From NCBI RefSeq assembly GCF_001293685.1, contig NZ_BCAG01000006.1, positions 434,001-498,000 of the forward strand: a stretch of DNA of 64,000 nt, in the 5' to 3' direction. The DNA comes from Desulfatitalea tepidiphila. GTDB lineage: Bacteria; Desulfobacterota; Desulfobacteria; Desulfobacterales; Desulfosarcinaceae. Position 1 is the first letter of the stretch. Each line of letters begins with the position of its first letter. The position numbers and the translations under genes are program-made. Below are positions 5,015-56,733 of this stretch, in pieces. A model generated the notes under the pieces. The model saw only the letters and a list, made by a program, of their open reading frames with translations, searched no databases and was not told the origin of the DNA.

Positions 5015-5015
5015 T

Positions 5016-19352: not shown

Positions 19353-20363
19353 ATGATCCTCTACGATACATCCATCCCCATGAGCCTGGAACCGTTCGGC
19401 ATTCTGATCCCCGTCCGCGACAGCCGCGCCACACGGACGTTTGCCGCCCTGACAGAGCATCCGACAATCGGCCCAATGGTCCGCCGCTGGCATCATCCAA
19501 CGGTCAGCGAACGGCTTTCAAGGGATGATCTGATGCGCGTCCACAGCCCCGAATACGTGCAGCGTCTCTTTTCGGATGGACTGGAAACGGAGATACTGGC
19601 CACCTATGAACTCATCGCGGCCGACGGCACCTACCACCGCTATGCGCCCCAAAAGGCCGTTTACCCGCTGCGCCAGCTGTTCGAACGGATGCTGGTCAAG
19701 GCGGCCGGCACCACCCAATGCGGCCGCCTGGCCTTGGCTCACGGCTTCTGCTATTACTTCGGCGGCGGCATGCACCACGCCCATCGGGACCACGGCAGCG
19801 GCTTTTGCATGGTCAACGACATCGTCATCGCGGCACGTAAGCTCCAGGCCGAGGGCGCGGTCAGCCGGGTATGGGTCATCGATGTCGACGCCCACAAGGG
19901 AGACGGTACCGCCGCGCTGACCGCCGGCGACGCCAGCATCCTCACCTTGAGCATTCACATGGCCGACGGTTGGCCTTTGGACGGCCCGGCTTGCCTTCCG
20001 GACGGCACGGCCAATCCGGTATTCATTCCCAGCGACATCGAGATCCCCATCGCCTCCGGGGAAGAATCGGCCTACATTGAACGTCTGGAAATAGGCTTGC
20101 AGCGGTTGTCACAAATGGGGCGGGCGGACCTGGCCATCGTCGTGAACGGGGCCGATCCTTACGAGGCGGACGAATTGCCCTCAACAGCCGGCCTGAGCCT
20201 CTCCATCGACCAGATGCTGGCCCGGGACCAGCTGATCTACCGCTTCCTGCGCCGGCAGGACATTCCCGCCGCTTTTCTCATGGCCGGTGGATATGGCGAT
20301 CGGGTCTGGCCGGTCTATGCCCGCTTTCTCACCTGGGCGCTGGCCGATGCCCTAAAAATCTGA
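19353..20363 (+). CDS. Histone-deacetylase-superfamily amidohydrolase
   Basis: A 336-residue arginase/deacetylase-fold zinc hydrolase. The catalytic set is complete: His141-His142 (GMHHAH), zinc ligands Asp179 and His181 (IDVDAHKGDGT) and Asp268 (NGADP), and the transition-state Tyr314 (AGGYGD). The second histidine usual after the zinc-binding His is Lys182. In bacteria this superfamily removes acyl groups from small amides such as acetylated polyamines; the real substrate is unknown. The stop codon directly abuts the stop of the convergent GNAT-deacetylase-GNAT gene, making a second deacetylase at this locus. The ribosome site is GGGAG, 7 bases upstream. Confidence 0.88.
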   Translation: MILYDTSIPMSLEPFGILIPVRDSRATRTFAALTEHPTIGPMVRRWHHPTVSERLSRDDLMRVHSPEYVQRLFSDGLETEILATYELIAADGTYHRYAPQKAVYPLRQLFERMLVKAAGTTQCGRLALAHGFCYYFGGGMHHAHRDHGSGFCMVNDIVIAARKLQAEGAVSRVWVIDVDAHKGDGTAALTAGDASILTLSIHMADGWPLDGPACLPDGTANPVFIPSDIEIPIASGEESAYIERLEIGLQRLSQMGRADLAIVVNGADPYEADELPSTAGLSLSIDQMLARDQLIYRFLRRQDIPAAFLMAGGYGDRVWPVYARFLTWALADALKI

Positions 20364-22616
20364 TTACTTCAAAATTTTCAAATAGATGGCCTTGCCATCG
20401 CCCGGGGCGTAAAAATCCTTCAGGGTGGCTTCGAGCCGGTAGCCGCAATTTTCGTAGAATATCCGAGTGCTTGCATATTCGGCCCGTTGGGAGGTGTCCA
20501 CGTAGATGCGCCTGCCGCCGGCCTTGTGGATGCGCCGCTCGGTCTCCTTGATCAGGCGGCGTCCCAGTCCGCGGCGCTGGAATTCGGGGTGTACGGCGAT
20601 CCAGTACAGATCGAAACTGTTGGCGCTGCCGGCGATGGGTCCGTAGCAGGCGTAACCCACCAGGCGGCCGTAATGCTCGGCCATGATGAAGTAATAGCCG
20701 CTGGCCTCGCCCTTTGCCAGGCGCTCGGTGACCAACTCCTCGGCCACATCGACCTCTTCGGGATTGAAAAAACCGGTGACGGTCACCAGCCGGCGGATGC
20801 GCTCCGGGTCCTGGGGTTCGAGGGTATCGCGCCACCGCAGGCCGTGCATGTTCTCCCTCGCCGCCGGTTGCTGCTCGGCCGCCTTGACGCGCGCCGCCAC
20901 CAACCCCTTGAAAAAATGGACCGCGCTTGTGCCCAGGGTACGGTTGCGATAGCCCCCCTCCTGGACCACAACGGTGGGCAGGTTCAGATCACCAATCATG
21001 CGGCCGTTGTTTTCAAAATCACGGGCACCCAACCGCCAGGTACCCGTGGGATCGCCCTTGGCCGTATCCAGCCCTAGTGCCACCACGAGAAACAAGGGTT
21101 TGAAAGCCGCGATGCGTTCGATGGCCCTGGACAGGGTCTTGGCATAGAGCTCTCCGTCTACCGTCTCAGGCAGCGGCAGATTCAGGTTGAAACCCTCCCC
21201 TTCACCCTCGCCGCGCTCGTCTTCAAAACCGGTGAAATAGGGATAGGCGAACTTGGGATGGCCATGGATAGAGATGGTCAGTACGTCGGAGCGGCGGTAG
21301 AAGATATCCTGCTGGCCGTTGCCGTGGTGATAGTCGATGTCCAGGATGGCCACCCGGCCGTGGGCGCTGAGGAAGTTGGCGGCAATGGCGTTGTTGTTGA
21401 AGTAGCAGAAGCCGCCGAAGGCGCAGCGCTCGGCATGGTGGCCCGGCGGTCGAACCAGGGCATAGGCGATGCGGCGTCCGGCCAGGATTTCGGCGGCAGC
21501 GGTCAGGGCGCAGTCCACCCCCCGGCGGGCCGCCGGATAGGCATTGCGGTTGATGGGCGTAAAAGTGTCGATGCAGTAGTAGCCGGACAAGACCGACGGT
21601 TCCTTGGGCGGCCGGGTCTTGTTGCGGATCGGAAAGATATAAGGATAGAGGGACTTGCCTTCGGGCATCTCGGCGCAGGCGCGGCGCAGATAGTTGACCA
21701 GGTCGGCATCGTGTACGGCCGTGATGTGCTTCTCGCCGAAGGCCCGCGGCGGGCTGACGGCAAAAAGGCCGCTGGGGTCCAGAGCCTTGCGGATGGTGCT
21801 GACCCGCACCGGCGCCTCCACGTAGCCGTGTTCGTGCACGTGGTGAATGTCGTGCTTGTCGTTGACGACCAGGGCGATCTGCTCGATGGAGCGCCCTTCC
21901 ACCGCGCTGCGCACCGCCTCGGGCTTCACATAGCGAAAAGGCCGTAGGGGCACCGGGTCCTTCTGAAACGAGCCCACCACGCGGTTCACATAGTCGGGCG
22001 GACAGTATTCGGCATATTTGCGCTCGAGGATGGCCCGTACCACCTTCTGAACGAAGTCCCGACGCAGGGGCGCGGTGCGGTCCAGGCCGTCGTAGACCAG
22101 GTGCGGCATGCAGGTGTCGCCGGGCTTCACCGGCGTTTCGTAGCCCGAATCCACGATGGGTCGCGCACCATAACGTTCGTAGAACCTCAGGCGCGCCCGG
22201 TTTTCCCGGAGCAGGGCCTCATCCGGACAACGCTCGTGATCGTCAGGCAGACATTCGAAAAATAGCCCCCTGGCCTCCAGGTCCACGGCCTCTCCGCGCA
22301 CGCGGTCATAGAGGGCGCTGCCCAGGCCGCCGCCGGTCTTGCCGCCGGCTAGGGCGATCCAATCCAGGTAGCAGAACCCGATGACCGGCTCGTGCAGCAC
22401 CATGGCGAAACCCAGCACGCGGCGCCGCAAATTTTCGGCCACCAGCAAGATGGTGCGGAAGCGCTGTTTGAACGGATTGCGCAGCTTTTCGCCGATCTGC
22501 TCGATCTCCTCTTCGGGCACCGCGTTGAACCGCGTGCGCAGGATCTGCTGCACCTGTTTGAGGATCTCCCGGTTGATGGGCAACACATCGTCGTATATTC
22601 TTCTGATTTTAAGCAT
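20364..22616 (-). CDS. GNAT - acetylpolyamine-amidohydrolase-like deacetylase - GNAT fusion
   Basis: A 750-residue three-part fusion. Residues 1-175 are GNAT-like (WIALAGGKTGGGLGSALYD). Residues about 255-580 form an HDAC-superfamily domain close to acetylpolyamine amidohydrolases: His393-His394 (RPPGHHAE), zinc ligands Asp428 and His430 (ILDIDYHHGNG) and Asp517 (LGLDT), Tyr556 (QEGGY). Residues about 595-750 are a second GNAT with the acetyl-CoA loop VHPEFQRRGLGRRLI. One chain could therefore both add and remove an acyl group. It is the last gene of the aminomutase/ATP-grasp operon and overlaps the upstream ligase by 8 bases. A small metabolite made by the operon is the likeliest substrate (inference). 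Confidence 0.88.
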   Translation of the reverse strand: MLKIRRIYDDVLPINREILKQVQQILRTRFNAVPEEEIEQIGEKLRNPFKQRFRTILLVAENLRRRVLGFAMVLHEPVIGFCYLDWIALAGGKTGGGLGSALYDRVRGEAVDLEARGLFFECLPDDHERCPDEALLRENRARLRFYERYGARPIVDSGYETPVKPGDTCMPHLVYDGLDRTAPLRRDFVQKVVRAILERKYAEYCPPDYVNRVVGSFQKDPVPLRPFRYVKPEAVRSAVEGRSIEQIALVVNDKHDIHHVHEHGYVEAPVRVSTIRKALDPSGLFAVSPPRAFGEKHITAVHDADLVNYLRRACAEMPEGKSLYPYIFPIRNKTRPPKEPSVLSGYYCIDTFTPINRNAYPAARRGVDCALTAAAEILAGRRIAYALVRPPGHHAERCAFGGFCYFNNNAIAANFLSAHGRVAILDIDYHHGNGQQDIFYRRSDVLTISIHGHPKFAYPYFTGFEDERGEGEGEGFNLNLPLPETVDGELYAKTLSRAIERIAAFKPLFLVVALGLDTAKGDPTGTWRLGARDFENNGRMIGDLNLPTVVVQEGGYRNRTLGTSAVHFFKGLVAARVKAAEQQPAARENMHGLRWRDTLEPQDPERIRRLVTVTGFFNPEEVDVAEELVTERLAKGEASGYYFIMAEHYGRLVGYACYGPIAGSANSFDLYWIAVHPEFQRRGLGRRLIKETERRIHKAGGRRIYVDTSQRAEYASTRIFYENCGYRLEATLKDFYAPGDGKAIYLKILK

Positions 22617-23616
22617 GGCTCAAACCCCGGGCCTCGACGATGCGTGCCACGGCTTCGTCCAGGGTCAGACCGGCCCGCTCGACCGCCGCGGCGAAACCGG
22701 CGTCGGGGGACAGACACGGGTTGGCGTTGATCTCCAGAACCCAGGGCAACTGCTCGGCATCCACACGAAAATCGACCCGGGCATAGCCACTCAGGTCGAA
22801 CAGCTCCCAGCAGCGAAGAGCCATGGCTTCGAGCTGATCGAGCAACAGGCCGTCCTCGCCGCCGAAATCGAAACGGCGCGGCGTGTGGTGATAGGCGTAG
22901 CTGTCGCTGTCCCATTTGGCCTGATAGCCGACGATGCGCGGCTGGTCCTCACCGAAACCCTCGAAAACGATTTCGGCCGGCGGCAGCACAACCGGTCCGC
23001 TCGGCCCGTCGAGTACCGACAGGTTGAATTCACGTCCTGGAATAAAGGCTTCGGCAAAGCAGTCGCCGCCCAGATGGGGCGCCCGCTCGGCCAGCACGGC
23101 ATTGAGATGGGGGGTCTCGGCACCCTCTATGAGCGCCGACGCATCGATGCCGATGGAGGCATGTTCCCAGACCGATTTGACGATCCAGCGCGACGGCCAC
23201 TCCGCGCTGGCGGGAAGCACACAGGGCCGGCTTCCGTTGCAGGGCCCGACCCATACCGGCGTGGGCACGCCGGCCGCGTGAAGGCGCGTCTTGGCCAGGA
23301 TCTTGTTGGAGGTGAGAAAGATCGCTTCGGCCGATGAGCCGGTGTAGGGCTGCCCCATGGCATCCAGCAGAGAGGGCAGCAGATGAATCAGCCGGCCGCT
23401 GCCATCCAGCGCCTCGACCAGGTTGAACACCAGATCGGGTCCTGCAGCCTCGATTTTTCCCTTGATATCGGTCAGATTCAGGTCACAGGCGAAACGCAGG
23501 GTCTCATGCCCCAGACGATGCAAAGCGGCACCGACCATTTCGGCCTGCACCAGCACATCCTGCTCGTCCGGCGCCCCCCCCTCCTGGACCGCATTATGCA
23601 CCACCACGACGCGCAA
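22609..23616 (-). CDS. ATP-grasp ligase, D-Ala-D-Ala-ligase-like (second of pair)
   Basis: A 335-residue ATP-grasp enzyme. The N-terminal domain has FNLVEALDGSGRLIHLLPSL and GQPYTGSSAEAIFLTSNK, as in Ddl-type ligases. The central domain supplies nucleotide contacts (RWIVKSVWEHASIG; FAEAFIPGREFNLSVL). The C-terminal metal-binding strands are ARVDFRVD and WVLEINANPCLSPDAG. Such enzymes join a carboxylate (as acyl phosphate) to an amine; the operon context suggests ligation of a beta-amino acid or its derivative rather than peptidoglycan synthesis. It overlaps the upstream ligase gene by 23 bases and the downstream fusion gene by 8, so translation is coupled. Confidence 0.86.
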   Translation of the reverse strand: MRVVVVHNAVQEGGAPDEQDVLVQAEMVGAALHRLGHETLRFACDLNLTDIKGKIEAAGPDLVFNLVEALDGSGRLIHLLPSLLDAMGQPYTGSSAEAIFLTSNKILAKTRLHAAGVPTPVWVGPCNGSRPCVLPASAEWPSRWIVKSVWEHASIGIDASALIEGAETPHLNAVLAERAPHLGGDCFAEAFIPGREFNLSVLDGPSGPVVLPPAEIVFEGFGEDQPRIVGYQAKWDSDSYAYHHTPRRFDFGGEDGLLLDQLEAMALRCWELFDLSGYARVDFRVDAEQLPWVLEINANPCLSPDAGFAAAVERAGLTLDEAVARIVEARGLSHA

Positions 23617-24628
23617 AGGCCTGCCCCCCCTTTTTCCCGGCTTGCTGGCGGACCCGTTTCAGGGCCGAACGCATGATCTGTCCGATCAGGTCCACGTAAG
23701 CGATCCCCAGCAGGTTGCACAATATCGGCAGGTCCGAATGTTGGGGATGCAAGCCGGCCAGGGGGTTGACCTCCATGAACATGGGATCCTGTTGCGTGTC
23801 ACAGCGAAGGTCCACCCGTCCGGCATCTCGACAGCCCAGCACCCGCCAGGCCTCAAGGGCCACGGCCTCGGTCCGGGCCACGACCGTATCCTCCTGGGGT
23901 CGCACCAGTCGATAGGAAACCAGGTCCTCGCAACGCTCCTTGTTCACGTAGGAATAAACATTGGGCTCAGCCTGCTTGAGCAGAAGCACCTCCATGGTCC
24001 CGAGGACCCGGGCATCGGCGCCGGTACCCACCAGACCCACGGTAAACTCACGGCCGGACAAAAAAGGCTCGACCAGCACCGGCTGGTCAAAGGCGACCTG
24101 CAGATTGCGGCAGGCCGCACCCAGATCGTCCCGCCGGCGCACGATGGAATCGGGCGTCACCCCCTTGCCCGTGCCTTCAGCCACCGGTTTGATGAAATAG
24201 GGCGGACCGAAAGCGATCCGGCGCAAGTCCTGGGGGCCTTCAACCACGGTAAAATCAGTCGTGGCAACGCCCGCATCGCGCAACACGTGTTTGGTCATGC
24301 CCTTGTGCAGGGTCAAGGTCATAACCAATGGATCGGAAAAGGTATAGGGAATCTCGTAAGCGTCCAGCATGGCCGGTACCTGGGCCTCGCGGCCGATGCC
24401 ATGCATCCCCTCGGCGATGTTGAATACCATGTCCCAGCGATCGCCGGCCGCCAAGCGGGCCATCAAATGACGAGCATGTCCGATGCGGTCGCTCTGGTAG
24501 CCCAACGACGCCAGGGCATTCTCCAAGGCGTCGATGGTGTCGGCGCGATCGAACTCGGCCGTCTCCTCTTCCGTATAGCCGGCCGCAAGGTAGTCGGCCC
24601 GCAGGTCATAGGTCAGCCCAATCTTCAT
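23594..24628 (-). CDS. ATP-grasp ligase, D-Ala-D-Ala-ligase-like (first of pair)
   Basis: A 344-residue ATP-grasp enzyme, paralogous in layout to the next gene. It shows MKIGLTYDLR at the N-terminus, FNIAEGMHGIGREAQVPAML, the ATP-binding Lys in YFIKPVAEGTGKGV, EPFLSGREFTVGLVG, and the metal-binding DLRCD and FMEVNPLAGLHP. The start at 24628 fits the conserved N-terminus and overlaps the Cys-cluster gene by 23 bases; an ATG at 24700 would add 24 residues without homology. The tail (about 310-344) is basic. Two consecutive ligases imply two bond-forming steps or two alternative substrates. Confidence 0.86.
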   Translation of the reverse strand: MKIGLTYDLRADYLAAGYTEEETAEFDRADTIDALENALASLGYQSDRIGHARHLMARLAAGDRWDMVFNIAEGMHGIGREAQVPAMLDAYEIPYTFSDPLVMTLTLHKGMTKHVLRDAGVATTDFTVVEGPQDLRRIAFGPPYFIKPVAEGTGKGVTPDSIVRRRDDLGAACRNLQVAFDQPVLVEPFLSGREFTVGLVGTGADARVLGTMEVLLLKQAEPNVYSYVNKERCEDLVSYRLVRPQEDTVVARTEAVALEAWRVLGCRDAGRVDLRCDTQQDPMFMEVNPLAGLHPQHSDLPILCNLLGIAYVDLIGQIMRSALKRVRQQAGKKGGQAFARRGGA

Positions 24629-25190
24629 CGACCAGACCCTCCCACATGATTTCATCATACAGCATTCGATGCCAGCATACGGCTTCCGCATCTCCGACAC
24701 CGGCGATACCGGCCGCGACGACCGCAGCGGGGTCGATCCGCGCGGCCAGGCATTCCATGTCCCATCGATGGGCCAACCCTATCGCTGAATAGACATGGGG
24801 GAACAGACGACAAACCAAGGGTCGCACAGCCAACGGCAATTGGCAACCCGTGGCGGTCAAAAAAATACAATCTCCACTCTCGCGCTGTCTCAGCACGCGG
24901 CGGGTACCGTCGGGCCGAAAGACCTGCTGCTGCCAGACCGGATCGTCATCCTGATCCGCATAGGCGGCATCGCCGCAGGCCCGGTATTCAATAATATCCG
25001 ATTGCCGGGTGTGGCTCAGTATTCTGCGGCAATCCCCCCATGTCACATAGATATCATGCCCCTGGCAGCAACTTCTTCCATTGCGGGCACATGTTTGACA
25101 TAAACACACCCCACCGGTGGGTTCCGGGGCGATGGGCCGAAAGCGCCCTCCCCCGGCCTGCCCGCCGGTTTCATTGGATAACGCGGTCAT
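24606..25190 (-). CDS. YkgJ-like cysteine-cluster protein
   Basis: A 194-residue protein with the conserved Cys arrangement of the YkgJ/zinc-iron chelatase-like family: CLCQTCARNGRSCCQG near residues 29-44, a Cys in SGDCIFL, then GCQLPLAVRPLVCRLFPH near 115-132. The R-P-x-x-C-R-x-F-P element is the family signature. The cysteines probably bind a metal ion or iron-sulfur cluster; function in any member is poorly known. It lies between the radical-SAM aminomutase (40-bp gap) and the first ATP-grasp ligase (23-bp overlap). A role in maturing or supporting the radical enzyme is conceivable but unproven. Confidence 0.78.
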   Translation of the reverse strand: MTALSNETGGQAGGGRFRPIAPEPTGGVCLCQTCARNGRSCCQGHDIYVTWGDCRRILSHTRQSDIIEYRACGDAAYADQDDDPVWQQQVFRPDGTRRVLRQRESGDCIFLTATGCQLPLAVRPLVCRLFPHVYSAIGLAHRWDMECLAARIDPAAVVAAGIAGVGDAEAVCWHRMLYDEIMWEGLVDEDWADL

Positions 25191-25230
25191 CTATCGCCGC
25201 CCTCTGTCGTGCGGCCGATTCCGGAATCGC

Positions 25231-26532
25231 TCAACAGCAGTCCGGATACTTGTAAAGGTTCCCTTCGTAGTTTTTCAAAACGACATGGCCATGTTCACGG
25301 CCCATGACGTATTCGGGCATCAGAGGCACCTTGCCCCCCCCTCCCGGCGCGTCGATGACGTAGGTGGGCACCGCATAGCCGGAAGTGTGCCCGCGCAATC
25401 CGCGGATGATCTCCAACCCTTTTTCCACCGGCGTACGAAAGTGCGCCGAACCGGAAATCGGATCACACTGATAGAGATAGTAGGGGCGCACCCGCATCTG
25501 AAGCAGGTGATGCACCAGCGCGCTCATGGTTTCCACCGAATCGTTGACCCCCTTGAGCAGCACGGTCTGTGAGCCCAGGGGGATACCCGCGTCGGCCAGA
25601 CGCTGGCAGGCGCGGTAAGACTCGGTCGTGCACTCGTCGGGATGGGTAAAGTGCAGGCTCATCCAGAGCGGGTGGTGGCGGCGCAACATCTTGACGAGTT
25701 GCGGCGTCACCCGTTGGGGCAATACCGCAGGAATCTTGGTGCCGATGCGAATGATCTCCACATGCTTGATCTGGCGCAATTGAGTGAGCAGCCAATCCAG
25801 GCGCGCATCGCCCAGGGTGAGTGGATCGCCGCCGGACAGCAGCACATCCCGGACCGTGGGGGTGCGGCGAATGTAGTCCAGCGCATTTTCCAGACGACGG
25901 CGGTTGAAAAACAGTCGACCATGCCCCACCACCCGGGAACGGGTGCAGTAACGGCAATAGGTCGAACAAAAGTCCAGGGTCAAAAAGAGCACGCGGTCGG
26001 GATAACGATGCACCAGTCCCGGCACAGGGCTCTGGGTATCTTCGCCCAGGGGGTCATCATCCTCACCGACGGATTTGACAAATTCATCGACCACGGGCAC
26101 CACGGTTTTGCGCAAGGCATAATCGGATCCGTGGCCCACCAGCAGGCTCATAAAGTAGGGCGTAATCGCCAGCGGCAGGTTGGTTTGCAATCCCATGGCC
26201 GCGTGACGCTCACGATCGGTTAGATCGAGAAACTTCTCCAGTTGGGCAAGGGTGTGCACCCGGTTGGCGATCTGCCACCGCCAGTCGTTCCACTGACGTT
26301 CGGTGACCGTGGGATAGTAAAGCTGTTTGAAACGTCTGCGCGGTGTAGGGGTGTCGGGAGGCGAAGGTTGGATGGAAAGCTTGTGCTTGATCCTTTTTTC
26401 AGCAGGCAGGCTGATGGGCGTTGCCGCCTCCTGACTTGGAGGCTCCTCTTCGACCTCCGCAGCCACCGTGTTGGCACAACTGGATTTGACATCTGCTCTG
26501 GCTTTGGCTGGACGTCGTTGATGAATAGGCAT
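25231..26532 (-). CDS. kamA: KamA-family radical SAM aminomutase, probable lysine 2,3-aminomutase
   Basis: A 433-residue radical SAM, PLP-dependent aminomutase. The [4Fe-4S] cluster motif is Cys189-x3-Cys193-x2-Cys196 (CSTYCRYC). The PLP lysine is Lys401 in PGGGGK. Asp357 (CDP) and Asp394 (IDAPGGGGK) are spaced exactly as the two aspartates that hold the lysine side-chain amine in clostridial lysine 2,3-aminomutase (293 and 330); glutamate aminomutases differ there. Production of beta-lysine is therefore the best prediction. The first 65 residues are a low-complexity extension. The start at 26532 has an AAGGAG site; an ATG at 26568 lacks one. First gene of a five-gene operon. Confidence 0.88.
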   Translation of the reverse strand: MPIHQRRPAKARADVKSSCANTVAAEVEEEPPSQEAATPISLPAEKRIKHKLSIQPSPPDTPTPRRRFKQLYYPTVTERQWNDWRWQIANRVHTLAQLEKFLDLTDRERHAAMGLQTNLPLAITPYFMSLLVGHGSDYALRKTVVPVVDEFVKSVGEDDDPLGEDTQSPVPGLVHRYPDRVLFLTLDFCSTYCRYCTRSRVVGHGRLFFNRRRLENALDYIRRTPTVRDVLLSGGDPLTLGDARLDWLLTQLRQIKHVEIIRIGTKIPAVLPQRVTPQLVKMLRRHHPLWMSLHFTHPDECTTESYRACQRLADAGIPLGSQTVLLKGVNDSVETMSALVHHLLQMRVRPYYLYQCDPISGSAHFRTPVEKGLEIIRGLRGHTSGYAVPTYVIDAPGGGGKVPLMPEYVMGREHGHVVLKNYEGNLYKYPDCC

Positions 26533-29235: not shown

Positions 29236-31269
29236 CTACACTTTCTTCCCGGGTTTAAGGACCAGCGCAGTGCGATGGGGCAGGTAGATGCTGAGCCGAT
29301 GGGGGGGATGAAATTTATCCCGGGCCGCCAATGCGACGTGGGAGATGGTGCGGTCGATGCGGTCGTAGCCGCCGAAGCGCACATCGTCGGAATCGAGCAC
29401 GATGTCGTACTTTCCCGGTGGAGAGGAAAATTGGTAGTCGGCAAACGAACGGGTGGGGTTGAAGTTGAAAGCCCATATCAATCCGCCACGCTCGAAGATC
29501 AGGATCTTGTCGTCATCGCGCTCCCAGAGCAGGCGGGCGGCGGGCGAGGCCAACACGTTGTACGACTTCGCCAGGGCGATCATCTCCCGGTCGAAAAGGG
29601 CCAATTGGGAGTATTTGAGGTTGGGGTCGTCGGCCAGGTGCCACTGGCGGCGGGCGTAGTGATAAGACCAGTTGTTGCCTTCCCTGGGGAAATCGATCCA
29701 TTCGGGGTGACCGAATTCGTTGCCCATGAAGTTCAGGTATCCGTGACCGGCCGTGGCCAGGGTGATCAACCGGATCATCTTGTGCAGCGCGATACCGCGA
29801 TCCACGACCATGTGGTGGTCGCCCATGCCCATGTGGTAGTACATCTCGGCATCGATCATGCGGAAGATCAGGGTCTTGTCGCCGACCAGGGCCTGATCGT
29901 GGGATTCGGTGTAGGAGATGGTCCGTTCGTCCTGCCGGCGGTTGTTCAGTTCGTACCAGAGGCCGCCCATGTGCCAATCTTCGTCCCGGATATCCTTGGT
30001 GAGCTTGATCCAGTTGTCGGGCACACCCATGGCGAACCGGTAGTCGAACCCGATGCCTCCCTCTTCCCAGGGTCTGGCCAAGCCCGGCATGCCGCTGACG
30101 TCTTCTGCGATGGTGACCGCATCCGGTCGCACCTGGTGAATCAATTGGTTGGCCAGGGCCAGGTAGCACAAGGCGTCTTCGTCCACGTTGGGATTGAAGT
30201 AGTCCTCATAGGAAGTAAAAGCTTTTCCCAGGCCATGATCCAGGTAAAGCATGCTGGTGATGCCGTCGAAGCGATACCCGTCCACGCGGAATTCATCCAG
30301 CCAGTAGCGGCAGTTGGACAGCAGGAAGTGGAGCACCTGGGGCTTGGCATAATCGAAGAGGCGCGAATCCCAGGCAATGTGACGACCGCGATGGCCTTTG
30401 TGGAAAAACTGGTACTCGCTGCCGTCATAGCGGCTGATGCCTTCGACTTCGTTGCTCACGGCATGGGAGTGAACCAGATCGATGAGCACCCGCAGTCCTG
30501 CCCCATGGGCGGCATCCACCAGCGCCTTGAATTCCTCGGGCGTGCCGAAGCGCGACGACGGGGCGAAAAAGCTGCTCACATGGTAACCGAAACTGCCGTA
30601 ATAGGGGTGTTCGGGGATGGCCATGATTTGCAGCGTGTTGTAGCCGGCCGCGACCACGCGGGGCAACACGTTTTCGGTAAACTCGACATAGCCGCCCACG
30701 CGCCCCTCGGGCTGAGCCATGCCCACATGAACTTCGTAGATCAGTGGCGGCTCATCGGCCGCGGTGAATTTCTCCACCTGCCACGGGTAAGGTTTTTCCG
30801 GATGCCAAACCTGGGCATTGAAGATATGGGTCACAGGGTCCTGCACGACCCGCCGAGCCCAGGCCGGAATACGGTCGCCGACGCCGCCGGGCCACTGCAT
30901 ATAGAGGCGATACAGGTCCCCGTGCCGGAGTCTTTCGCCCGGCAACCGCAATTCCCACGTCCCGTTGGCATCGATGCGCTGGAACGCCATATCTTCATGC
31001 GGCTGCCAGCTGCTGACATCTCCGATCAAATGGATGGCCGTGGCATTGGGCGCCCACTCCCGCAACACCCATTCTCCATCATGAAAATGCAGGCCGTAGT
31101 AAGTATGGCCCGATGCAAAATCGCCCAAAGCGCCCTGCCCGTCGGTCAGTTCCCGCAACGTGCTCGAGATCAGGGCAATGCGACGGGCGATGGCCTCGAG
31201 GTGCAGCTCGAGGTAGTCGTCGGAAGAGATGAAGCGCATGGCGCGCTGCCGGTCATTGTCTGTTATCAT
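29236..31269 (-). CDS. glgB: 1,4-alpha-glucan branching enzyme, eukaryote-like GH13
   Basis: A 677-residue branching enzyme. An N-terminal CBM48 domain is followed by a GH13 barrel with nucleophile Asp335 (DGYRFDGITS), acid Glu389 (IAEDVSGM) and the third acidic residue in YTESHDQ. The stretch GYLNFMGNEFGHPEW and NWSYHYARRQWHL closely matches animal, fungal and plant branching enzymes rather than classic E. coli GlgB. It creates alpha-1,6 branches in glycogen. It starts two bases after the glycogen synthase stop, so the two are one operon on the minus strand. Confidence 0.94.
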   Translation of the reverse strand: MITDNDRQRAMRFISSDDYLELHLEAIARRIALISSTLRELTDGQGALGDFASGHTYYGLHFHDGEWVLREWAPNATAIHLIGDVSSWQPHEDMAFQRIDANGTWELRLPGERLRHGDLYRLYMQWPGGVGDRIPAWARRVVQDPVTHIFNAQVWHPEKPYPWQVEKFTAADEPPLIYEVHVGMAQPEGRVGGYVEFTENVLPRVVAAGYNTLQIMAIPEHPYYGSFGYHVSSFFAPSSRFGTPEEFKALVDAAHGAGLRVLIDLVHSHAVSNEVEGISRYDGSEYQFFHKGHRGRHIAWDSRLFDYAKPQVLHFLLSNCRYWLDEFRVDGYRFDGITSMLYLDHGLGKAFTSYEDYFNPNVDEDALCYLALANQLIHQVRPDAVTIAEDVSGMPGLARPWEEGGIGFDYRFAMGVPDNWIKLTKDIRDEDWHMGGLWYELNNRRQDERTISYTESHDQALVGDKTLIFRMIDAEMYYHMGMGDHHMVVDRGIALHKMIRLITLATAGHGYLNFMGNEFGHPEWIDFPREGNNWSYHYARRQWHLADDPNLKYSQLALFDREMIALAKSYNVLASPAARLLWERDDDKILIFERGGLIWAFNFNPTRSFADYQFSSPPGKYDIVLDSDDVRFGGYDRIDRTISHVALAARDKFHPPHRLSIYLPHRTALVLKPGKKV

Positions 31270-31271
31270 CG

Positions 31272-32783
31272 CTAATGCAGCAAGGGCCTTTCCAGCATTT
31301 TTTCATAAAGGTCGATATACTGCCGGGCATTGAACGCATGGGTAAAGGTCTCCATGGCATGACGCATGACACGGGTGATCTGGCGCTCCCTGATCGGATC
31401 GGGCAACTGGAAAAAGTCCATGGCACGGTCCACGGCCCACAGCAGGCCCTGGGCGTCGTAAATATCGAAGAGAAATCCACTGCCCGTATCCCGATCGGCG
31501 TCGAGTTGGGACACCGTGTCATGAATGCCGCCCGTGTTGTGGGCCACCGGCAGGGCACCGTAAATCTGGCCGATCATCTGGGGCAGGCCGCAGGGCTCGA
31601 ATAGAGAGGGCATCAACACAAAGTCCGCCGCACCGTAAGCCTGGTGCTCCAGGCGCTCGCTGAAATCGCACACCGCCACCCGTTGGTGAAATTCGTGCTG
31701 ATTGACGATGTTGCGGAAGACATTCTGGTAAGGACCGTCGGCCACGAAGACCACCTGCAGTCCCTGCTCCCAGTATTTGGAAATCACGCCATAGAAGATA
31801 TCGGCCAGCAACTGGCACCCTTTCTGGACCGGATCGAGGCGCGAGGGCCAGATAAAGACCGGCGCCCGTTCGTCTTCGAGGAGCCCGAGCAACCGCTGCA
31901 GATCCCTCTTGTTTTTACGCTTGGCCGACAAGTGGTTTTCGGATCCATAGGTCTCGAACAGGAATTGATCCTTCTCCGGGTTGAAACCCGGATCCGGCGC
32001 ATTGAGAATGCCCGTGGCGCATTCGGCCCGGACCTTGTTGGTCAACTCCTGGCGCAGCGGCGGGGCGATGAAATGGTGGCGTCCTTCGACGATCTCGTCG
32101 AGAAAACGCTGACTGACCGTGTTGACGAAGTGGGCGGCAAACACGCCACTGGCTAGAAAATCGACGGGGACGCTCTCCCTGGCCTCTTCATAGCTGGCAG
32201 CGAAGTTCTCGTAATAGAGGTGATCCCAGAAGTAGGCCGCATCGATGCCACGGTCTTCGATATGGGAGAGAGTGGTCTTGACCGTGTGAATATTGTGAAT
32301 CGTAAACAAGCAGGGAACGCCCATCTGCCGGGCCATGCCTGGTATCAGACCGGTCATCCAGTCGTTGCAGTGGATGAGGTCGGGCCGCACCCGCGGCACG
32401 ATGTTGTTGATCACCTCGCGCTGGAACGCCAGGGAGATATGGGTGTTTTCCCCTCCATAGTTGGAATAGACGCGGTTGAGGTAAAAAAAGGCCCGATCCT
32501 CGGCCAGGTGAATGCGGTCGTTGGGCATCACCCGGTGCAGGGTACGCTGCTCCCGCCTGAGAAACGGGGCCAGGCGGTCCTCGAAAATCGAGCGATAGTC
32601 GGGCAATGCCACATGCACATCGGCGCCCTGATGAAAGAGCGCGCTGACCAGGGCGGCCGATACGTCGGCCAAGCCGCCGGCCTTGGCCGTTAGATAGTTG
32701 GCCAGGCTACCCATGCGGTCGGGAAGATAGGTCACCTCGGGGGTAACGATCAGGATCCGAGGTTTTTTTTGCTTTTTCGCCAT
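31272..32783 (-). CDS. glgA: Glycogen synthase (GT5)
   Basis: A 503-residue GT5 glucosyltransferase. The N-terminal glucosyl-nucleotide and acceptor loop is KAGGLADVSAAL; the C-terminal nucleotide-binding motif is LMPSLFEPCGLPQMIGQIYG, followed by NTGGIHDTV. It elongates alpha-1,4-glucan chains from a nucleotide sugar. GT5 bacterial enzymes normally use ADP-glucose, but no glgC is present here while galU is, so the donor is open. It lies in tandem with glgB (2-base gap) and 101 bases downstream of the phosphorylase. Confidence 0.93.
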   Translation of the reverse strand: MAKKQKKPRILIVTPEVTYLPDRMGSLANYLTAKAGGLADVSAALVSALFHQGADVHVALPDYRSIFEDRLAPFLRREQRTLHRVMPNDRIHLAEDRAFFYLNRVYSNYGGENTHISLAFQREVINNIVPRVRPDLIHCNDWMTGLIPGMARQMGVPCLFTIHNIHTVKTTLSHIEDRGIDAAYFWDHLYYENFAASYEEARESVPVDFLASGVFAAHFVNTVSQRFLDEIVEGRHHFIAPPLRQELTNKVRAECATGILNAPDPGFNPEKDQFLFETYGSENHLSAKRKNKRDLQRLLGLLEDERAPVFIWPSRLDPVQKGCQLLADIFYGVISKYWEQGLQVVFVADGPYQNVFRNIVNQHEFHQRVAVCDFSERLEHQAYGAADFVLMPSLFEPCGLPQMIGQIYGALPVAHNTGGIHDTVSQLDADRDTGSGFLFDIYDAQGLLWAVDRAMDFFQLPDPIRERQITRVMRHAMETFTHAFNARQYIDLYEKMLERPLLH

Positions 32784-32884: not shown

Positions 32885-35434
32885 TCAAGCCCAGGTGAGC
32901 AATCCAGGCGTAAATCGGATCCAGTCGTCCGCGCGGGGGCCGATGCGCACCGTAAAGCCGTAACGCCCCGAATCCCGGCAGGTCACCGTGCAGCGGAACA
33001 GATAACTGCCTTCCCCGCGATCTTCGACCATCTCCATCTTCTGGGTGAGTCCGATTTCCAGTTCCGCGGTGCCCTTCATGCGACCGTAATACAACTCCAC
33101 ATCGACCTCGTCGGGGTCGAGACTGCCCAAATGGGCCACCGCGCTGACGGTGAAGGTATCTTCCACCTGGAAGGGCCCTTCATGGTCGCGCTCGGGGGTT
33201 TCGATCCGGATATCCTTCCAACAATCCCTGAGCCGCTTGTGCAGGACGCTCAATCGCTTGGCCTCGGCGCCGCCATCGGCCATCAGTTCGCGATGGCGTT
33301 GCACGGCCGGAAGGTAAAACCGCTGCTGATATTCGTTGATCATGCGGTGGCTGCAAAAATCGGCCATGGCCATTTTCATGGAGGCCTTCATCTTGGCCAG
33401 CCACTCGGTCGGCATGTTGCCCGAAGACCGGTTGTAGAACATCGGGATGACGTCGTTTTCCAGGATATTGTAGAGGGCCTGCTGATCGACGGCATCCTGG
33501 TACCCCTGATCGGCCGTCTCCTGGCCGCTGCCCAGGCTCCAACCGCGCTCGGAGGTGTACCCCTCGTCCCACCAACCATCGAGGATGCTCAGGTTCAAAA
33601 CGCCGTTGATGGCGGCTTTCATGCCGGAAGTCCCGCAGGCCTCCATGGGCCGCCTGGGCGTATTGAGCCAAACATCCACACCCTGCACGAGGTGACGGGC
33701 GATGCCCATGTCATAATCTTCCAGAAAAGCGATGTTGCTGCGCACGTCGTGGGTTTTGGCGAACTGAATGATGTTTTTGATCAGCTCCTTACCCTCGTTG
33801 TCCTGGGGATGGGCCTTGCCGGCGAATAGGATCTGAACCGGATGCGACGTGTTGGTCAGAATCGCCTTGAGCCGCGCCGGATTGCCCAGGATCAGGTTGG
33901 CCCGCTTGTAGGTGGCGAACCGGCGGGCGAACCCGATGGTCAGCACCTCTGGATCCAGGGCATTTTCGGCGGCCTTGACCACCGAAATCGGTGCGCTGCG
34001 CCGTTCGTACTGCTTGACCAGCAGGTCCCGAACCTTACTGATCAAGCGCGCCCGGGCCATTTCATGAGCGCGCCAGAGCTCTTCGTCATAGATCTCGCCG
34101 ATTCGCTCGATATTCTCCCCCTTGCGGCTGCTGTAATGCCACTCCGGTCCCAGATAGCGCTCGAAGAGGAAGAAAATTTCGGGTGCGATAAAACTCGATA
34201 CGTGAATGCCGTTGGTCACATGCTTGATCGGTATGTCATCCACCGACCGTTCCGGCCACACATGGGCCCACATGCGCCGCGCCACCCGTCCGTGCAGGCG
34301 GCTCACGCCGTTGCAGTGTTCGGAGAGACGCAACCCCAGGATGAACATGGAAAAGGGGCCATGGGGATGGGCGTTGCCCGTTCGCCCCCAGGAGAGGATC
34401 TCGTCCTCGGTCACGCCCATCCGCTTGGCGAGATTTCGAATATACGGCCGCACCGACTCGGGCGGGAATTCGTCATGCCCGGCCGCCACCGGTGTATGGG
34501 TCGTGAAAACCGACGTGCGTGCCACCGCCTCCAATGCCGTCGGTAGATCAACTTGATGCGCCTCGACCCACTGGGCCAGTCGCTCGACGTTGGCAAAGGC
34601 GCTGTGCCCCTCGTTCATATGGCACACGGTGGCCTCGATCCCCATGGCTTTGAGCGCCCGCATGCCGCCGATCCCCAACAGCACCTCCTGGGCGAGACGA
34701 ACGCCCGGCTCGCTGTTGTAGAGCCGGGCGGTGATATTACGGATGGCCGGTGGATTCTCGGGCACATTGGTATCCAGCAGCACCAGGGGAACCCTGCCGA
34801 TCATGATCTTCCAGACATCGGCCAGAATATCGCCGTCAGGTCCCTCAACCTGGATGCGCAGTTCGACGCCGGCGCTGTCTTTTACGCGCACCAGCGGCAG
34901 GGAGTAGAGATCCGTCTCCGGATAGGTCTCCTGCTGCCAGCCGTTGGGATCGAGCAGTTGGCGGAAGTAGCCCTGGCGGTAGAGCAACCCCACCGCCACC
35001 ATGGGAAGTCCCATGTGGGACGCGGACTTGAGATGATCACCGGCAAGAACGCCCAAACCACCGGCAAACAGCGGCAGGCTTTCGTGGATACCGAACTCCA
35101 TGGAGAAATAGGCGATGCGGGCGGTTGAACCGTATGGATTGGTGCCCAGATCGGGCGATGCCAGCACGCGTTCTTTAAACTGCTGCCGAACCCGGTCCAG
35201 ATGGGCCAGGAAGCTGTCGTCAGCGGCCAGCTTTTTCAACCGGATCTGAGAGACCTTGGTGGCGAAAACAATGGGATTGCGACCGGACGCCTCCCAAAGA
35301 CGCGGATCCACGCGTCGGAACAATTCGATGGCGTCGGGTTTCCACGACCACCACAAGTTGCGCGACAGAACGCCGAGAAAACTCAGCGAGCTTGGCAACT
35401 TGGGAAATACCTGAAAGGCTTGTATGTGCTTCAT
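32885..35434 (-). CDS. glgP: Alpha-glucan phosphorylase (GT35) with DUF3417 N-terminus
   Basis: An 849-residue phosphorylase of the bacterial/archaeal type that starts with a DUF3417 region ([21 protein letters not shown]). The PLP-binding lysine is Lys606 in [16 protein letters not shown]. It releases glucose 1-phosphate from glycogen ends using phosphate. A C-terminal extension from about 735 has beta-rich sequence. The start at 35434 has an AGGAG site 7 bases upstream; the ATG at 35461 does not. It belongs to the glycogen cluster and provides the degradative arm together with the debranching enzyme. Confidence 0.93.
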
Positions 35435-35504
35435 CGGACGACTCCTGTGGGACAGATTCACATGTTACCGGGCCAGTGCCGGGACTCGAGTTTGACGTCA
35501 CCCT

Positions 35505-35607
35505 AAAAGGTCCATTATCTGCGTTGCGCTCATCCCGTGGTCCTTGCGGCGTAGGGCAAGTACACCTCAGGACACGGAATGTCGCGCGCCTTGATCTTGA
35601 GCCTTTT
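35505..35607. repeat. Imperfect 103-bp palindromic element
   Basis: The outer arms AAAAGGTCCATTATC (from 35505) and GATCTTGAGCCTTTT (to 35607) form an imperfect hairpin, with further CGTTGCGC/GCGCGCC pairing inside. It occupies the 308-bp gap between the phosphorylase start and the carbohydrate-binding gene, which holds nothing else recognisable. The shape suggests a miniature mobile element or a structured RNA. It is unrelated to the 280-300 bp family. Confidence 0.4.
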
Positions 35608-35742
35608 ACAGCGCCGCCTGGCAACGCCTACTTACGAATCCATCGAGTTTAATCTCAGACCGCGCTTGGGAATGAAAGGCGCCTACCCTTTCGGCACGTT
35701 TTGCCGGCGGTTGAGAACGATCGATGGATGAAACAGAGACCC

Positions 35743-36051
35743 CTAAACGACCACCACCCCGTTCTGGGTGTTGGCGATACCGGCATGCACATATTTATCG
35801 GCCTGCGTGTCGGTAATCCAGTAGGCGCCATCCACAACGAATCGATATTGGTATTCCCTTCCGGTGGCCAAGTTGACCGTTACGGTGAAATCGCCGTTCT
35901 TGAGGGCCTTCATGGGGGTCTTTTCGGCCTGCCAATCGTTAAACTCCCCCGCGAGGCCGGCGTTCTTGCCGTTACCGGCAAATTCCTTGGTCAGGCGAAA
36001 CGTCACTTTGCAATAGGGTTTGTTTTTAAGATACTGCTTTTTGGTGCTCAT
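35743..36051 (-). CDS. Stand-alone glycogen-binding (CBM48/AMPK-type) protein
   Basis: A 102-residue single-domain protein. The early-set beta sandwich typical of AMPK glycogen-binding domains is seen in CKVTFRLTKEF, GLAGEFNDW, the conserved Lys/Gly turn and GREYQYRFVVDGAYWITD; the Trp residues in NDW and AYW are the usual sugar-contact positions. No catalytic domain is attached. The start at 36051 has an AGGAG site; an in-frame ATG at 36213 would add 54 residues without homology. It lies between the phosphorylase and debranching genes and probably tethers or regulates glycogen enzymes on the granule (inference). Confidence 0.85.
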   Translation of the reverse strand: MSTKKQYLKNKPYCKVTFRLTKEFAGNGKNAGLAGEFNDWQAEKTPMKALKNGDFTVTVNLATGREYQYRFVVDGAYWITDTQADKYVHAGIANTQNGVVVV

Positions 36052-36230
36052 CGCTCTCTCCTGGGTATTATGCCTGGTTGCCATGCGCGGCTTGATATCG
36101 ACAATGAAGACATGCCAGCGGGGAGCAAGGATCGCGCTCAAACACGCGCCATCGATCGACGAGAAAGAGGTGTCGCATGGGGTTGCTGTTCGCTCCATAG
36201 ATAGTTTTAGCACCGCGGTTTGTCAACCAA

Positions 36231-36292
36231 AGCGATTCCAACTCAGCGATTCTAACTCTATGCTCATCATTGTACCCGGCAAGGATGGAGCA
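36231..36292 (-). repeat. Fragment E of dispersed palindromic element, with 14-bp tandem duplication
   Basis: AGCGATTCCAACTC (36231-36244) is directly repeated with one change (36245-36258), followed by TATGCTCATCATTGTACCCGG. This matches the end module of copies A and B. The gap between the carbohydrate-binding and debranching genes (36052-36310) has no gene. Confidence 0.45.
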
Positions 36293-36310
36293 GGTGACAG
36301 AAGCCGTAAC

Positions 36311-39300
36311 CTATACCGCCCTCACCTTGCGCCACACCCGCAACAACTCGCTGACCCCCCACGCCTGGGCATCGCAACCCCGCTGGGTGTGGGGGATATC
36401 GCCGTCCACGATCTCCGGCACATGGCCGACACAATGGCTGTTGATCAGCTGCAGGCTGCTCGACAGCCAGGCCAGGGCGGCCGGTGCCGCGGAACGTCCG
36501 TACCGCTGAACCCAGGCCTCGCAGAATAACGGAAACGGCCATGTCCAGGCCGTGCCATTGTGGTAGGCCGGCTTGCGTCGCGTGTCCTCATCCCCCTGAT
36601 ACTGGCCCCAGTAGGGTGCCATGGGATCGTTGAGCAGCTGTCCTTCCCTTTGAATGACCAGGGGCGCCTTGACCGGCTGGTCGGCCAGGCTGCGGATGGC
36701 CCCCGGAACGAGCAGCCGCTGGCAGGCATCCAGCATGCGGCGGACCATTTCGGGATCTTCCACGGCCCCCAGGGTAATGGCCAGCAACTGGTTGGGACGC
36801 AGGGCATCGTCCGGCCGGGCCTGGTCGGCCGGTGTGCCCGGGGAACCATGCAGACAATCGCTCAAATGGCCGGCATCGGGGAGCCAATAACGGGTCTGGA
36901 TGCTGTTCCGGACGCGTTGGGCCAGATCCTTCCAGGCCGAGCCGGCCGCTGGATCGATATCCGATAGAAAGACCAGGGCGGCATACCACAGCGCCTGAAT
37001 TTCGATGGGATAGCCCTCGCGCGGCGTACCGGCCGGATAATTGGTATCCATCCAGGTAAAATGGGCGGGGCTGAAGAGCAGACCCGACCCCGGATCCATG
37101 CGGATCCCGTTAGGGGTGCCGGCCATCAAGGCGCCGGCCATGTCCACCAGGATCTGCCGGATCGAACGGCGCTCGCAATGCTGATCGAGAAAATCGTCCC
37201 GCCCTTCGGCAACCGCCAAATCGGCGCAGGCGGTGAAAAACCATAGAGGCGCATCAGAGGTGTCCCGATTGCCGGCATCGTTTCCGCGGATCATGTTGGG
37301 CAGGGTGCCGTTGGCCTCGAACTGGGCGAACTGCAACAGGATCGCGCGACTCGTCTCCAGATGGCCGGCGGCGATCAGGCCGCGCACCACGATCAGGGTA
37401 TCGCGCCCCCAATCGAGAAACCAGGGAAATCCAGCAATGACCGTATTGAATTCGCCCCGGAGCACCACGTACTGTTTCAGGGCGGCGGCCATGGCGCCTT
37501 CCAGTGGCATGTCGTCTCCCTCGATGGACCCATCCAGCGCGGCCGGCGGCTTGGCCTTGGGCGCCGACGGGGTTTCAACCCAGGCGGTCAACATGATCCG
37601 CTGCCCGCCCCTCAGCGGGCAGGAAAAGTAGCCCGGGCTGAACAAATCGGAATTCGGATCGAGTCCCCTGCCGGCCTCCAGGGATCGATGCACCATATAA
37701 TACCACTCCGGTTCGATCTCAAAGCGTCCCTGGTCCTGCTGCATGACCAGGGCATGATGGGCGCCAGGGGCGAAACGAAACCCTTTCTTATGCGCCGTGA
37801 GGGCATTGGGCCACAGGGTTTCGGGCCCGGAAAAGGCCTTGGTGCATTCATGGAAGTTGCGATCTTCGATGTCAGGACGAATCACGAGCGTGACGGCCTG
37901 GTCATCGGCCAGTTCGGCCTCGCCCGAAATCCGATGGAGCCGCTCGAATTGCATAGCCACCATGTTGGCCCGATCGGGCAGCATGCGAGCCCGTACCTGC
38001 AAGACGATGTGTTCGCCCTGTCCGGCGATAATCTGATAGCGCCACCAGGCACCGCCCTCATAATCGAAACCGAAATGTTCGAGACAATCGGGTTTGATCT
38101 CCTGGGAATACCCTTGGTAGACCACCCACCCGCGGCAACGGGCCAGCAGGATGCGCCGATCTTCCGGAAAATCAGGATTCAGGTTGGCCGCCAGCAAGGC
38201 GTCGTAGCGGCTATCCAACCGGCGCCAGTCGGCGCGCACCCGCATCATGGCGCCTCTTCCATTGGTCCCTAACACCAGCAACGGGGTCTGATGACACTCG
38301 TTTCGGCTGAAAGCGGTGCGCACCCGGGCGTTGCGCCCATCGGCCAGATAGAGCAGCCTGGCGCGATGGTGCACGGGCCCATCGGGCTCGAAACTGACGA
38401 TCTGCAGTTCACACGGCCGGTGGGCGACCGGTGTCGGCAATGGCGCAAAAAGCACAAAGGCGTGCCCGTCGCTGCCGGCCAGGCTATCCTCCTGAGCCAG
38501 GACGCGTTCGCCCTCCACGATCCGGGCGCGCATGGGGTGAGGCGCATGAACGAGCAACAGGAAGCCGGGCGGCACCATCACCTCGCGCCGAAGGTCTGTG
38601 GGAAGCTGCCAGCGCACCAGGCGAGGCATCTCCACCCGGGGATCGAGACCGCGGCAAAAAGCCTCTGGATCGGCCTGCAACCGCCGCGCGGCCGCATCGA
38701 GATCACCGCTCGCGACGGCTCTGAAAACCACCATCACTTCCAGCGCCTTAGCCCGCAGACACTGCAACAGGACGGCCGGCGGCGGCGTATAGGGATCTTC
38801 GGGAGCCGCAGACGCCCATCCATCCCGGCTGTCGGCCAGGCAGACGACCTGCCCGGCGGCCAGATCGATCTGCCCCAGCTCATCCTTGTGAACAATGGCG
38901 ACGGGCTGTCCGCTGACCAGATCTATTACCGGCGGCTTTAAAAACGGGGCCCTGGCGGCATCCCAGCCGGCCGTCACCGGCCGGACGGCATCCAGGTTGG
39001 CCACGACGACCACACCACGGCCACTGGGCAGGTGATGCCGCGCCAGGGCGATGAAATTGCCCTCCCCCCGGTGGATGAGGGTCAACTGCACCCCGGGACC
39101 GAAAGCTGGATGGGTCTTGAGCAAACGACTCAAGTGAGCGATGACGTCGACCTGATTCTCGGAAGCGCCCCAATTCAGCGCACACGCCTCGTGGACATTG
39201 ATCTTTTCGGTGGCCAGCCACTCGACCCCGTTGGCAAAGCCGAAGGCGCCGTTGGGCGCCAGCAGGGCGCACAGGGCCGTCCGCATGCGGGCATAGGTGG

Positions 39301-56204: not shown

Positions 56205-56720
56205 ATGCCGACCCCAGCTTACCTGACCATCCAAGGCGCCAGCCAGGGCCACATCACCGAAGGCGCTTTTACCATCACCAGTGTGGGAAACGTCTACCAG
56301 GAGGGCCACGAAGACGAAATCCTGATCCAGGGATTCAAACACGAGGTGACCGTACCGACCGATCCGCAGAGCGGGCAGCCTACCGGCCAACGCGTGCACC
56401 GACCCCTGGTCGTCACCAAGGTGTTCGACAAATCTTCGCCCATGCTCTACACGGCACTCTGCTCGGGCGAAAAGCTCAACACCTGCACGCTCAAATGGTT
56501 CCGGACAGATCCGTCCGGCACTCAGGAGCACTACTTCACCATCGAGCTCGAAGACGCGATCATCACCGACATCACAGCGCACATGCCCAATTGCCAGGAC
56601 CCGGGAATGGTCCACTTCACCCATCTGGAAGAAGTCTCCTTCACCTACCGAAGCATCACCTGGACCCATGAAGCGGCCGGAACCTCGGGCTCGGACGACT
56701 GGCGGTCACCCAAAGAGTAA
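56205..56720 (+). CDS. hcp: Type VI secretion tube protein Hcp
   Basis: A 171-residue Hcp-family protein: LTIQGASQGHITEGAF at the N-terminus, ILIQGFKHEVTVP, RPLVVTKVFDKSSPMLYTAL, and HLEEVSFTYRSITWTHE near the C-terminus, in the family order. Hcp hexamers stack to form the inner tube that is ejected with VgrG. An AAGGAGG ribosome site lies 8 bases before the ATG. It is the first gene of the payload module and is followed by vgrG after 13 bases, which implies co-transcription. Confidence 0.95.
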   Translation: MPTPAYLTIQGASQGHITEGAFTITSVGNVYQEGHEDEILIQGFKHEVTVPTDPQSGQPTGQRVHRPLVVTKVFDKSSPMLYTALCSGEKLNTCTLKWFRTDPSGTQEHYFTIELEDAIITDITAHMPNCQDPGMVHFTHLEEVSFTYRSITWTHEAAGTSGSDDWRSPKE

Positions 56721-56733
56721 GCACGGAGGCAAA

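Follow-up and report, generated by a model that had tools for sequence, protein, structure and literature searches.

What is made by an operon that places a lysine-type 2,3-aminomutase (hereafter KAM) next to two ATP-grasp ligases resembling the D-alanine ligase Ddl and to acetyltransferases of the GNAT family? The question is raised by a stretch of 64,000 nucleotides from Desulfatitalea tepidiphila (contig NZ_BCAG01000006.1, positions 434,001 to 498,000; this whole stretch is called the window), in which the open reading frames (ORFs) include an operon of five genes on the minus strand, from 26532 to 20364. An initial annotation had tentatively assigned these genes to a beta-lysine-containing peptide or amide whose amine is reversibly acetylated. 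We find that the four-enzyme pathway at the core of the operon is real and conserved, and that it is apparently uncharacterised.

Results

A conserved core of four genes

In the comparison described here genomes are numbered Gnnn and loci Lnnn. A close homologue of the second ligase (ligase 2, E < 1e-80) was present in 23 of 40 genomes, the genome of the window included. Of the 22 other ligase 2 genes, 21 have KAM beside them, 21 the first ligase (ligase 1), 20 the C-terminal GNAT, 13 the deacetylase and 10 the YkgJ-like gene; the arrangement is not due to chance. The one missing KAM and the two missing GNATs fall at contig ends, and the missing ligase 1 (G009, L037) is not at a contig end. 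A scan of named genomes gave at least 577 confirmed relatives, and among the best 80 of these, many of them on truncated contigs, most have ligase 1 (76), the C-terminal GNAT (69) and KAM (65), and fewer have the deacetylase (27) or YkgJ (11). The relatives among the matches listed are labelled mostly as Desulfobacterales and other former Deltaproteobacteria; others are carried by metagenome-assembled genomes (MAGs) labelled as Planctomycetota, Acidobacteria, Verrucomicrobia, Kiritimatiellae, Spirochaetes and others, and such labels can be wrong.

Linkage was counted in 82 full-context loci, defined as those with more than 3.6 kb before and more than 2.5 kb after ligase 2 and with duplicate places removed. 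KAM was linked in 72 of them, ligase 1 in 76 and the C-terminal GNAT in 73, and all four core genes were together in 63 (46/52 close loci and 17/30 distant loci). Ligase 1 was absent nearby in six loci, three of which (L164, L184 and L185) hold it further off on the same stretch. The other parts were less frequent: YkgJ in 10 loci, the deacetylase in 30 and the N-terminal GNAT (GNAT-N) in 29. Given these locus counts, the conserved unit is KAM, ligase 1, ligase 2 and the C-terminal GNAT, and the YkgJ and GNAT-N/deacetylase parts are optional. A gene order restricted to this one genome had been named beforehand as evidence against the operon reading; the order proved to be conserved beyond it. 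When the genes of 102 loci (some counted twice) were clustered, no further family occurred in more than 10 loci beyond the core, YkgJ and antisense shadow frames, the families of 4-10 loci being not all named. As no other family recurs at that level, this suggests a self-contained pathway.

The arrangement in the window (Table 1) agrees exactly with the initial annotation, which described five same-strand genes, four of them overlapping by 8-23 bases: YkgJ and ligase 1 overlap by 23 nt, ligase 1 and ligase 2 by 23 nt, and ligase 2 and the fusion gene by 8 nt, with a gap of 40 nt between KAM and YkgJ. The gene identities given there were recovered by Pfam and, for the N-terminal GNAT, by profile alignment. 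KAM has an in-frame TTG at 26568, and a protein started there would have 445 amino acids.

Table 1. Positions of the operon genes, their domains and the convergent neighbour, numbered within the window.
Feature	Position	Strand	Evidence and remarks
KAM, lysine-type 2,3-aminomutase, radical SAM	25231..26532	-	LAM_C and Radical_SAM Pfam; ATG start
YkgJ-like Cys-cluster protein, accessory	24606..25190	-	CxxCxxCC Pfam
Ligase 1 (ATPg1), Ddl-like ATP-grasp, catalytic residues intact	23594..24628	-	Dala_Dala_lig_C
Ligase 2 (ATPg2), Ddl-like ATP-grasp, catalytic residues intact, Ddl acceptor motif replaced	22609..23616	-	Dala_Dala_lig_C; TTG start
GNAT-deacetylase-GNAT fusion, 750 aa	20364..22616	-	Hist_deacetyl and C-terminal GNAT Pfam; profile alignment
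N-terminal GNAT-like domain, accessory	22062..22616	-	hhalign to C-terminal GNAT, residues 11-154
Acetylpolyamine amidohydrolase-like deacetylase domain, accessory, catalytic residues intact	20904..21821	-	Hist_deacetyl; 9gkz match
C-terminal GNAT, core acetyltransferase; fused to ligase 2 in other genomes	20382..20867	-	2r7h match
Second deacetylase-family gene, convergent, outside core	19353..20363	+	Ends at the base before the operon end

The core genes occur together also when unlinked

In a phylum sample of 297 genomes, ligase 2 was scored at E ≤ 1e-50 and KAM by a score of 454-535 bits. Ligase 2 was present in 95 genomes and KAM in 100; both occurred in 88, only the ligase in 7, only KAM in 12 and neither in 190. 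Among the 12 genomes with KAM only, ligase 2 lies just beyond the threshold in five and weaker relatives exist in three, and among those with the ligase only, G291, G044 and G088 have partial KAM matches. All 17 genomes with distant ligases hold a KAM of 466-532 bits; one of these KAMs is linked after all (G168) and one genome has short contigs (G223). In G235, a single contig, KAM and the ligases are about 460 kb apart. The GNAT is lacking in nine full-context loci, and in five of the six genomes tested, with G037 as a positive control, it was found elsewhere; the sixth, where it was not found, was G052. Likewise, L086 has no ligase 1 nearby and its genome holds one elsewhere. KAM and the ligases thus form one conserved, co-occurring module, as the initial operon reading required.

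A lysine-type aminomutase from more than one clade

The KAM of the window reached 488.7 bits with the AblA profile TIGR03820 (cut-off 525.4), aligning to positions 3-359 of 417; the match stops at about position 360, and the C-terminal end of AblA is missing. The margin is narrow, since scores of up to 532 bits occur within its clade. Scores with the profiles for glutamate 2,3-aminomutase (TIGR04368, 423.5 bits, cut-off 650) and EpmB (TIGR03821, 241.5 bits, cut-off 369.3) were also below their cut-offs. The only relative of solved structure in a sequence search at E ≤ 0.001 was the lysine 2,3-aminomutase 2a5h (E = 9e-141). Equivalents of its R134, D293, D330 and K337, which we take to bind the lysine side chain, the carboxylate and PLP (pyridoxal phosphate), are all present in the window KAM. 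Among 133 fetched KAM matches, which include KAMs outside operons, R134 is kept in 129 (four unaligned) and each of the other three residues in 132 (one unaligned). At the two Asp positions a glutamate 2,3-aminomutase is expected to have Lys and Asn, and KAM has Asp at both. The lysine-type residues are thus kept wherever they could be aligned, in line with the initial assignment of this enzyme.

In the KAM tree, 24 of 32 operon KAM rows and 16 unlinked KAMs form one clade (support 100/96) that is set apart from the high-scoring AblA-type rows L209-L216. The operon KAMs of L147, L165 and L172, L149-151, L156 and L174 fall outside this main clade, and on the tree the operon label has to change at least six times. 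The branches of L174 (0.9), L204 (1.0) and L219 (1.2) are long and the exact places of such rows unsure; L202, marked as unlinked, is the same place as L174. Because several operon KAMs lie outside the main clade and the label changes at least six times, the aminomutase seems, from these sequences, to have been recruited into the operon, or replaced in it, more than once.

Apparent fusions of KAM and ligase 1 were rejected, as the long frames in L148-L151 are wrong-frame readings according to their translations and the case of L147 is an artefact of gene order. Separately, double KAM-type matches in tandem were seen in open frames of about 680-866 amino acids in G022, G024, G014, G017, G020, G038 and G039.

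Two Ddl-like ligases with different acceptor motifs

The two ligases are mutually related (hhalign E = 1.2e-61) and both match Ddl structures. With the Ddl profiles NF002378 and TIGR01205 (cut-offs 243 and 245.65 bits), ligase 1 scored 148 and 110.2 bits and ligase 2 scored 102.7 and 87.1 bits. The fold and the catalytic residues are thus shared with Ddl, whereas both scores are well short of the cut-offs and ligase 2 differs in its acceptor motif. The residues presumed to bind ATP and Mg in ATP-grasp enzymes (a Lys pair, the Mg-binding Asp/Glu/Asn and an Arg) are kept in 139-140 of 142 ligase 1 sequences, the others being unaligned, and in 140-142 of 142 ligase 2 sequences, the exceptions being one gap, one K-to-R and two E-to-D changes; for loci without ligase 1 the best match counted may be a paralogue. 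The Ser of the Ddl acceptor motif is kept by ligase 1 (S in 126/142) and is absent from ligase 2, as compared with two Ddl rows (L024 and L025) and with residue roles that we assume for Ddl. The missing motif hints that the acceptor of ligase 2 may differ from that of Ddl.

Among 134 distinct loci, with gene order checked and duplicate places removed, the GNAT lies downstream of ligase 2 in 109 and shares one open frame with it in 21. In L172 the two genes are in opposite order, and there is no fusion. Further Ddl-like genes were also noted, namely a weakly similar one in the window's genome (G000:C4) and other ATP-grasp paralogues in relatives (L053-L056 and L058); those of L053, L054 and L055 are single, carry a VFN motif and lie in different neighbourhoods.

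Acetyltransferase, deacetylase and YkgJ parts

The C-terminal GNAT matches 2r7h (E = 1.8e-42), named by its depositors as a putative D-alanine N-acetyltransferase, and is weakly similar to the RimI profile (46.5 bits, cut-off 86.4). With the AblB profile TIGR03827 it gave 20 bits (cut-off 205.1); an AblB above the cut-off is encoded elsewhere in the genome in 3 of 40 relatives (G022, G024 and G015). The N-terminal GNAT region of the fusion protein had no Pfam match, and its profile aligns to that of the C-terminal GNAT (hhalign, 95%, E = 1.8e-8), so the naming as GNAT-deacetylase-GNAT holds.

The closest matches of the deacetylase domain are acetylpolyamine amidohydrolases (9gkz, E = 2.1e-73), with which it shares intact zinc-binding and catalytic residues; the HH dyad, three zinc ligands and Tyr, whose roles we assume, are each kept in 42-43 of 44 sequences, with one D-to-E change and the others unaligned. 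It differs from these enzymes in being flanked by a GNAT domain on either side, within an operon of KAM and ligases. It is also absent from 52 of the 82 full-context loci. The YkgJ-like protein matched CxxCxxCC at 20.9 bits, below the Pfam cut-off of 23. As the deacetylase and YkgJ parts are accessory, the reversible acetylation proposed initially would hold for some lineages and not for the pathway as a whole.

Polyamine genes beside the ligases

KAM was not found nearby in 10 of the 82 full-context loci, and in seven of these (L163, L167, L168, L170, L171, L173 and L180) ligase 1 has a PvlArgDC gene upstream. Five of the seven also have an agmatinase-family gene and the other two, L173 and L180, a deoxyhypusine-synthase-family gene. 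The PvlArgDC-ligase loci span five families (f39, f42, f65, f73 and f78). Among the 72 KAM-linked loci PvlArgDC was found in none and an agmatinase-family gene in one. In L171 a third ATP-grasp gene, RimK-like (4633-5559), lies between PvlArgDC and ligase 1. As KAM is present in all seven genomes, either on another contig or at a distance, polyamines could serve as an additional building block, or the genes may only be co-regulated.

Other genes in the window

The second deacetylase-family gene in Table 1 has a counterpart beside the operon in 2 of 22 relatives. Further off, glycogen-type genes for a phosphorylase-family and a debranching-enzyme-family protein lie at 32885-40594 (minus strand), next to two ORFs at 29236-32783 that resemble branching enzyme and glycogen synthase, as named from reading of the sequence. 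On the plus strand at 56668-60652, a VgrG-like gene (type VI secretion or phage spike) is followed by an overlapping ORF of 564 amino acids with no Pfam match at 1e-10.

Discussion

The conserved residues of KAM point to conversion of L-lysine to beta-lysine. The two Ddl-like ligases would then use ATP, via an acyl phosphate, to form amide bonds between this beta-amino acid and one or two amino acids or amines, the number of bonds and the partners being presumptive. The C-terminal GNAT would acetylate a free amine of the product, and its occasional fusion to ligase 2 suggests that ligation comes before acetylation. What results would be a small N-acetyl beta-lysine pseudopeptide of reduced charge that stays in the cell; by analogy with N-acetylglutaminylglutamine amide and N-epsilon-acetyl-beta-lysine it would most likely be a compatible or stress solute. 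In genomes like that of the window the part composed of GNAT-N and the acetylpolyamine-amidohydrolase-like domain could remove or reset the acetyl group. Our preference for a solute inside the cell comes from the lack of any further gene family that accompanies the core. Taken as a whole, the proposal that the module makes an N-acetylated beta-lysine pseudopeptide, perhaps a solute, is in our view about evenly balanced between right and wrong. Of the initial beta-lysine reading, the type of KAM and the conserved module stand, and the deacetylase and YkgJ become accessory parts.

Several observations weigh against this reading. The Fisher test of co-occurrence (6e-53) is uncorrected for kinship and uses a KAM bit range chosen after the scores had been seen. 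Four of the 12 genomes with KAM only have no ligase 2 at 1e-20, and to these may be added the three with weak relatives; conversely, among ligase-only genomes G066 has no KAM at 1e-20, G312 has weaker KAMs only and G322 has none above 183 bits. G052 has the ligases and no GNAT of the operon type, and its KAM, at 610 bits, belongs to a different score class. G009, of the same genus as the window, has an operon without ligase 1 (L037, 7556-13469) and only a distant ligase 1 homologue in its genome. Some relatives come from samples labelled as fen, groundwater or reactor, and the polyamine genes beside ligases in five families suggest a role other than that of an osmolyte. An Rfam scan of the window operon and eight further loci found no family at the gathering score; control by a riboswitch was therefore rejected for these loci, and riboswitches give no hint that the operon is under osmotic control.

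The neighbourhoods with PvlArgDC, together with the agmatinase and deoxyhypusine-synthase genes, the likeness of the deacetylase to acetylpolyamine amidohydrolases and the altered acceptor motif of ligase 2, would also fit a polyamine-type conjugate, in which agmatine, putrescine or a spermidine is coupled by the ligases to beta-lysine (or a different amino acid), and free amines are the targets of GNAT and deacetylase. This is possible but unlikely: such genes are nearly absent from the KAM-linked loci, the link may be one of co-regulation, the RimK-like gene separates PvlArgDC from ligase 1 in L171, and the motif argument consists of two Ddl rows and assumed residue roles. The broader conjecture of a widespread undescribed metabolite class, N-acetylated beta-lysine conjugates of polyamines or diamines, made by the two ligases, capped by the GNAT and uncapped by the deacetylase in some lineages, is one we raise tentatively and would not expect to hold. 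Beta-lysine occurs in streptothricin-type antibiotics and ATP-grasp ligases often take part in the synthesis of small peptides, which with the occurrence of the module in MAGs labelled as several phyla might point to a secreted or signalling natural product built on acetyl-beta-lysine, such as a metallophore or small antibiotic. We regard this as improbable, as the clustering of 102 loci gave no recurrent family and hence no exporter, nonribosomal peptide synthetase or resistance gene in more than 10 (with the same proviso on families of 4-10), and as ligase 2 is, in our judgement, too common in the phylum sample to resemble most natural-product clusters.

That the ligases and GNAT act instead on an amine of a protein or of the cell envelope, with no free metabolite, is distinctly improbable. 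The RimI likeness of the GNAT and the Ddl-like fold are compatible with it, and EpmB, a relative of KAM, serves protein modification; however, no target gene recurs beside the module, and the scores with the EpmB and Ddl profiles are below their cut-offs. Finally, KAM and one GNAT would be enough for the ordinary synthesis of N-epsilon-acetyl-beta-lysine, with unrelated ligases nearby, and 9 of the 17 KAMs from genomes with distant ligases narrowly pass the AblA cut-off. This is very improbable, given that the GNAT is not AblB and that the ligases are constant partners of the module, ligase 2 being even fused to the GNAT in some loci.

Two known pathways come close to the proposed synthesis of an acetylated beta-lysine pseudopeptide. 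The AblA/AblB pathway for N-epsilon-acetyl-beta-lysine likewise combines a lysine-type 2,3-aminomutase with a GNAT. It differs in that the window KAM falls short of the AblA cut-off, has no AblA C-terminal end and does not group with the high-scoring AblA-type rows (some members of its own clade being narrowly above the cut-off), that the operon GNAT is not AblB and that two ligases are added. Synthesis of N-acetylglutaminylglutamine amide (asnO/ngg) uses a GNAT and an ATP-grasp ligase to make an N-acetyl dipeptide-type solute, whereas the operon has Ddl-like ligases, a ligase before the GNAT in its fusions and an aminomutase in addition. The profiles TIGR03103 and TIGR03104 matched neither ligase 2 nor the fusion protein, nor did they appear among the best 25 of 32 matches of ligase 1.

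No paper among those listed by the literature search describes a gene set of aminomutase, ATP-grasp ligases and GNAT; a likely source, the survey of ATP-grasp amidoligases reportedly made by Iyer et al. in 2009, lay outside that search, so prior notice is possible. Within the literature searched, the initial statement that no pathway with such a gene set has been described was not contradicted. A search on 2R7H showed nothing relevant among the matches listed. One passage has Na+ riboswitches sometimes associated with ablA for beta-lysine (PMC9337991), and another has Pelobacter carbinolicus proposed to make N-epsilon-acetyl-beta-lysine via ablA/ablB (PMC3543383). The main text of the fitness studies of two Desulfovibrio strains contains none of the searched words (PMC10102598, PMC4215793), and two passages of a sigma-54 paper (PMC12316311) concern other groups.

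Roughly one in three genomes of the phylum sample, and MAGs labelled as several other phyla, carry ligase 2. If the pathway does make an acetylated beta-lysine pseudopeptide, the known physiology of sulfate-reducing and syntrophic bacteria would include a further common metabolite, which is probably a solute.

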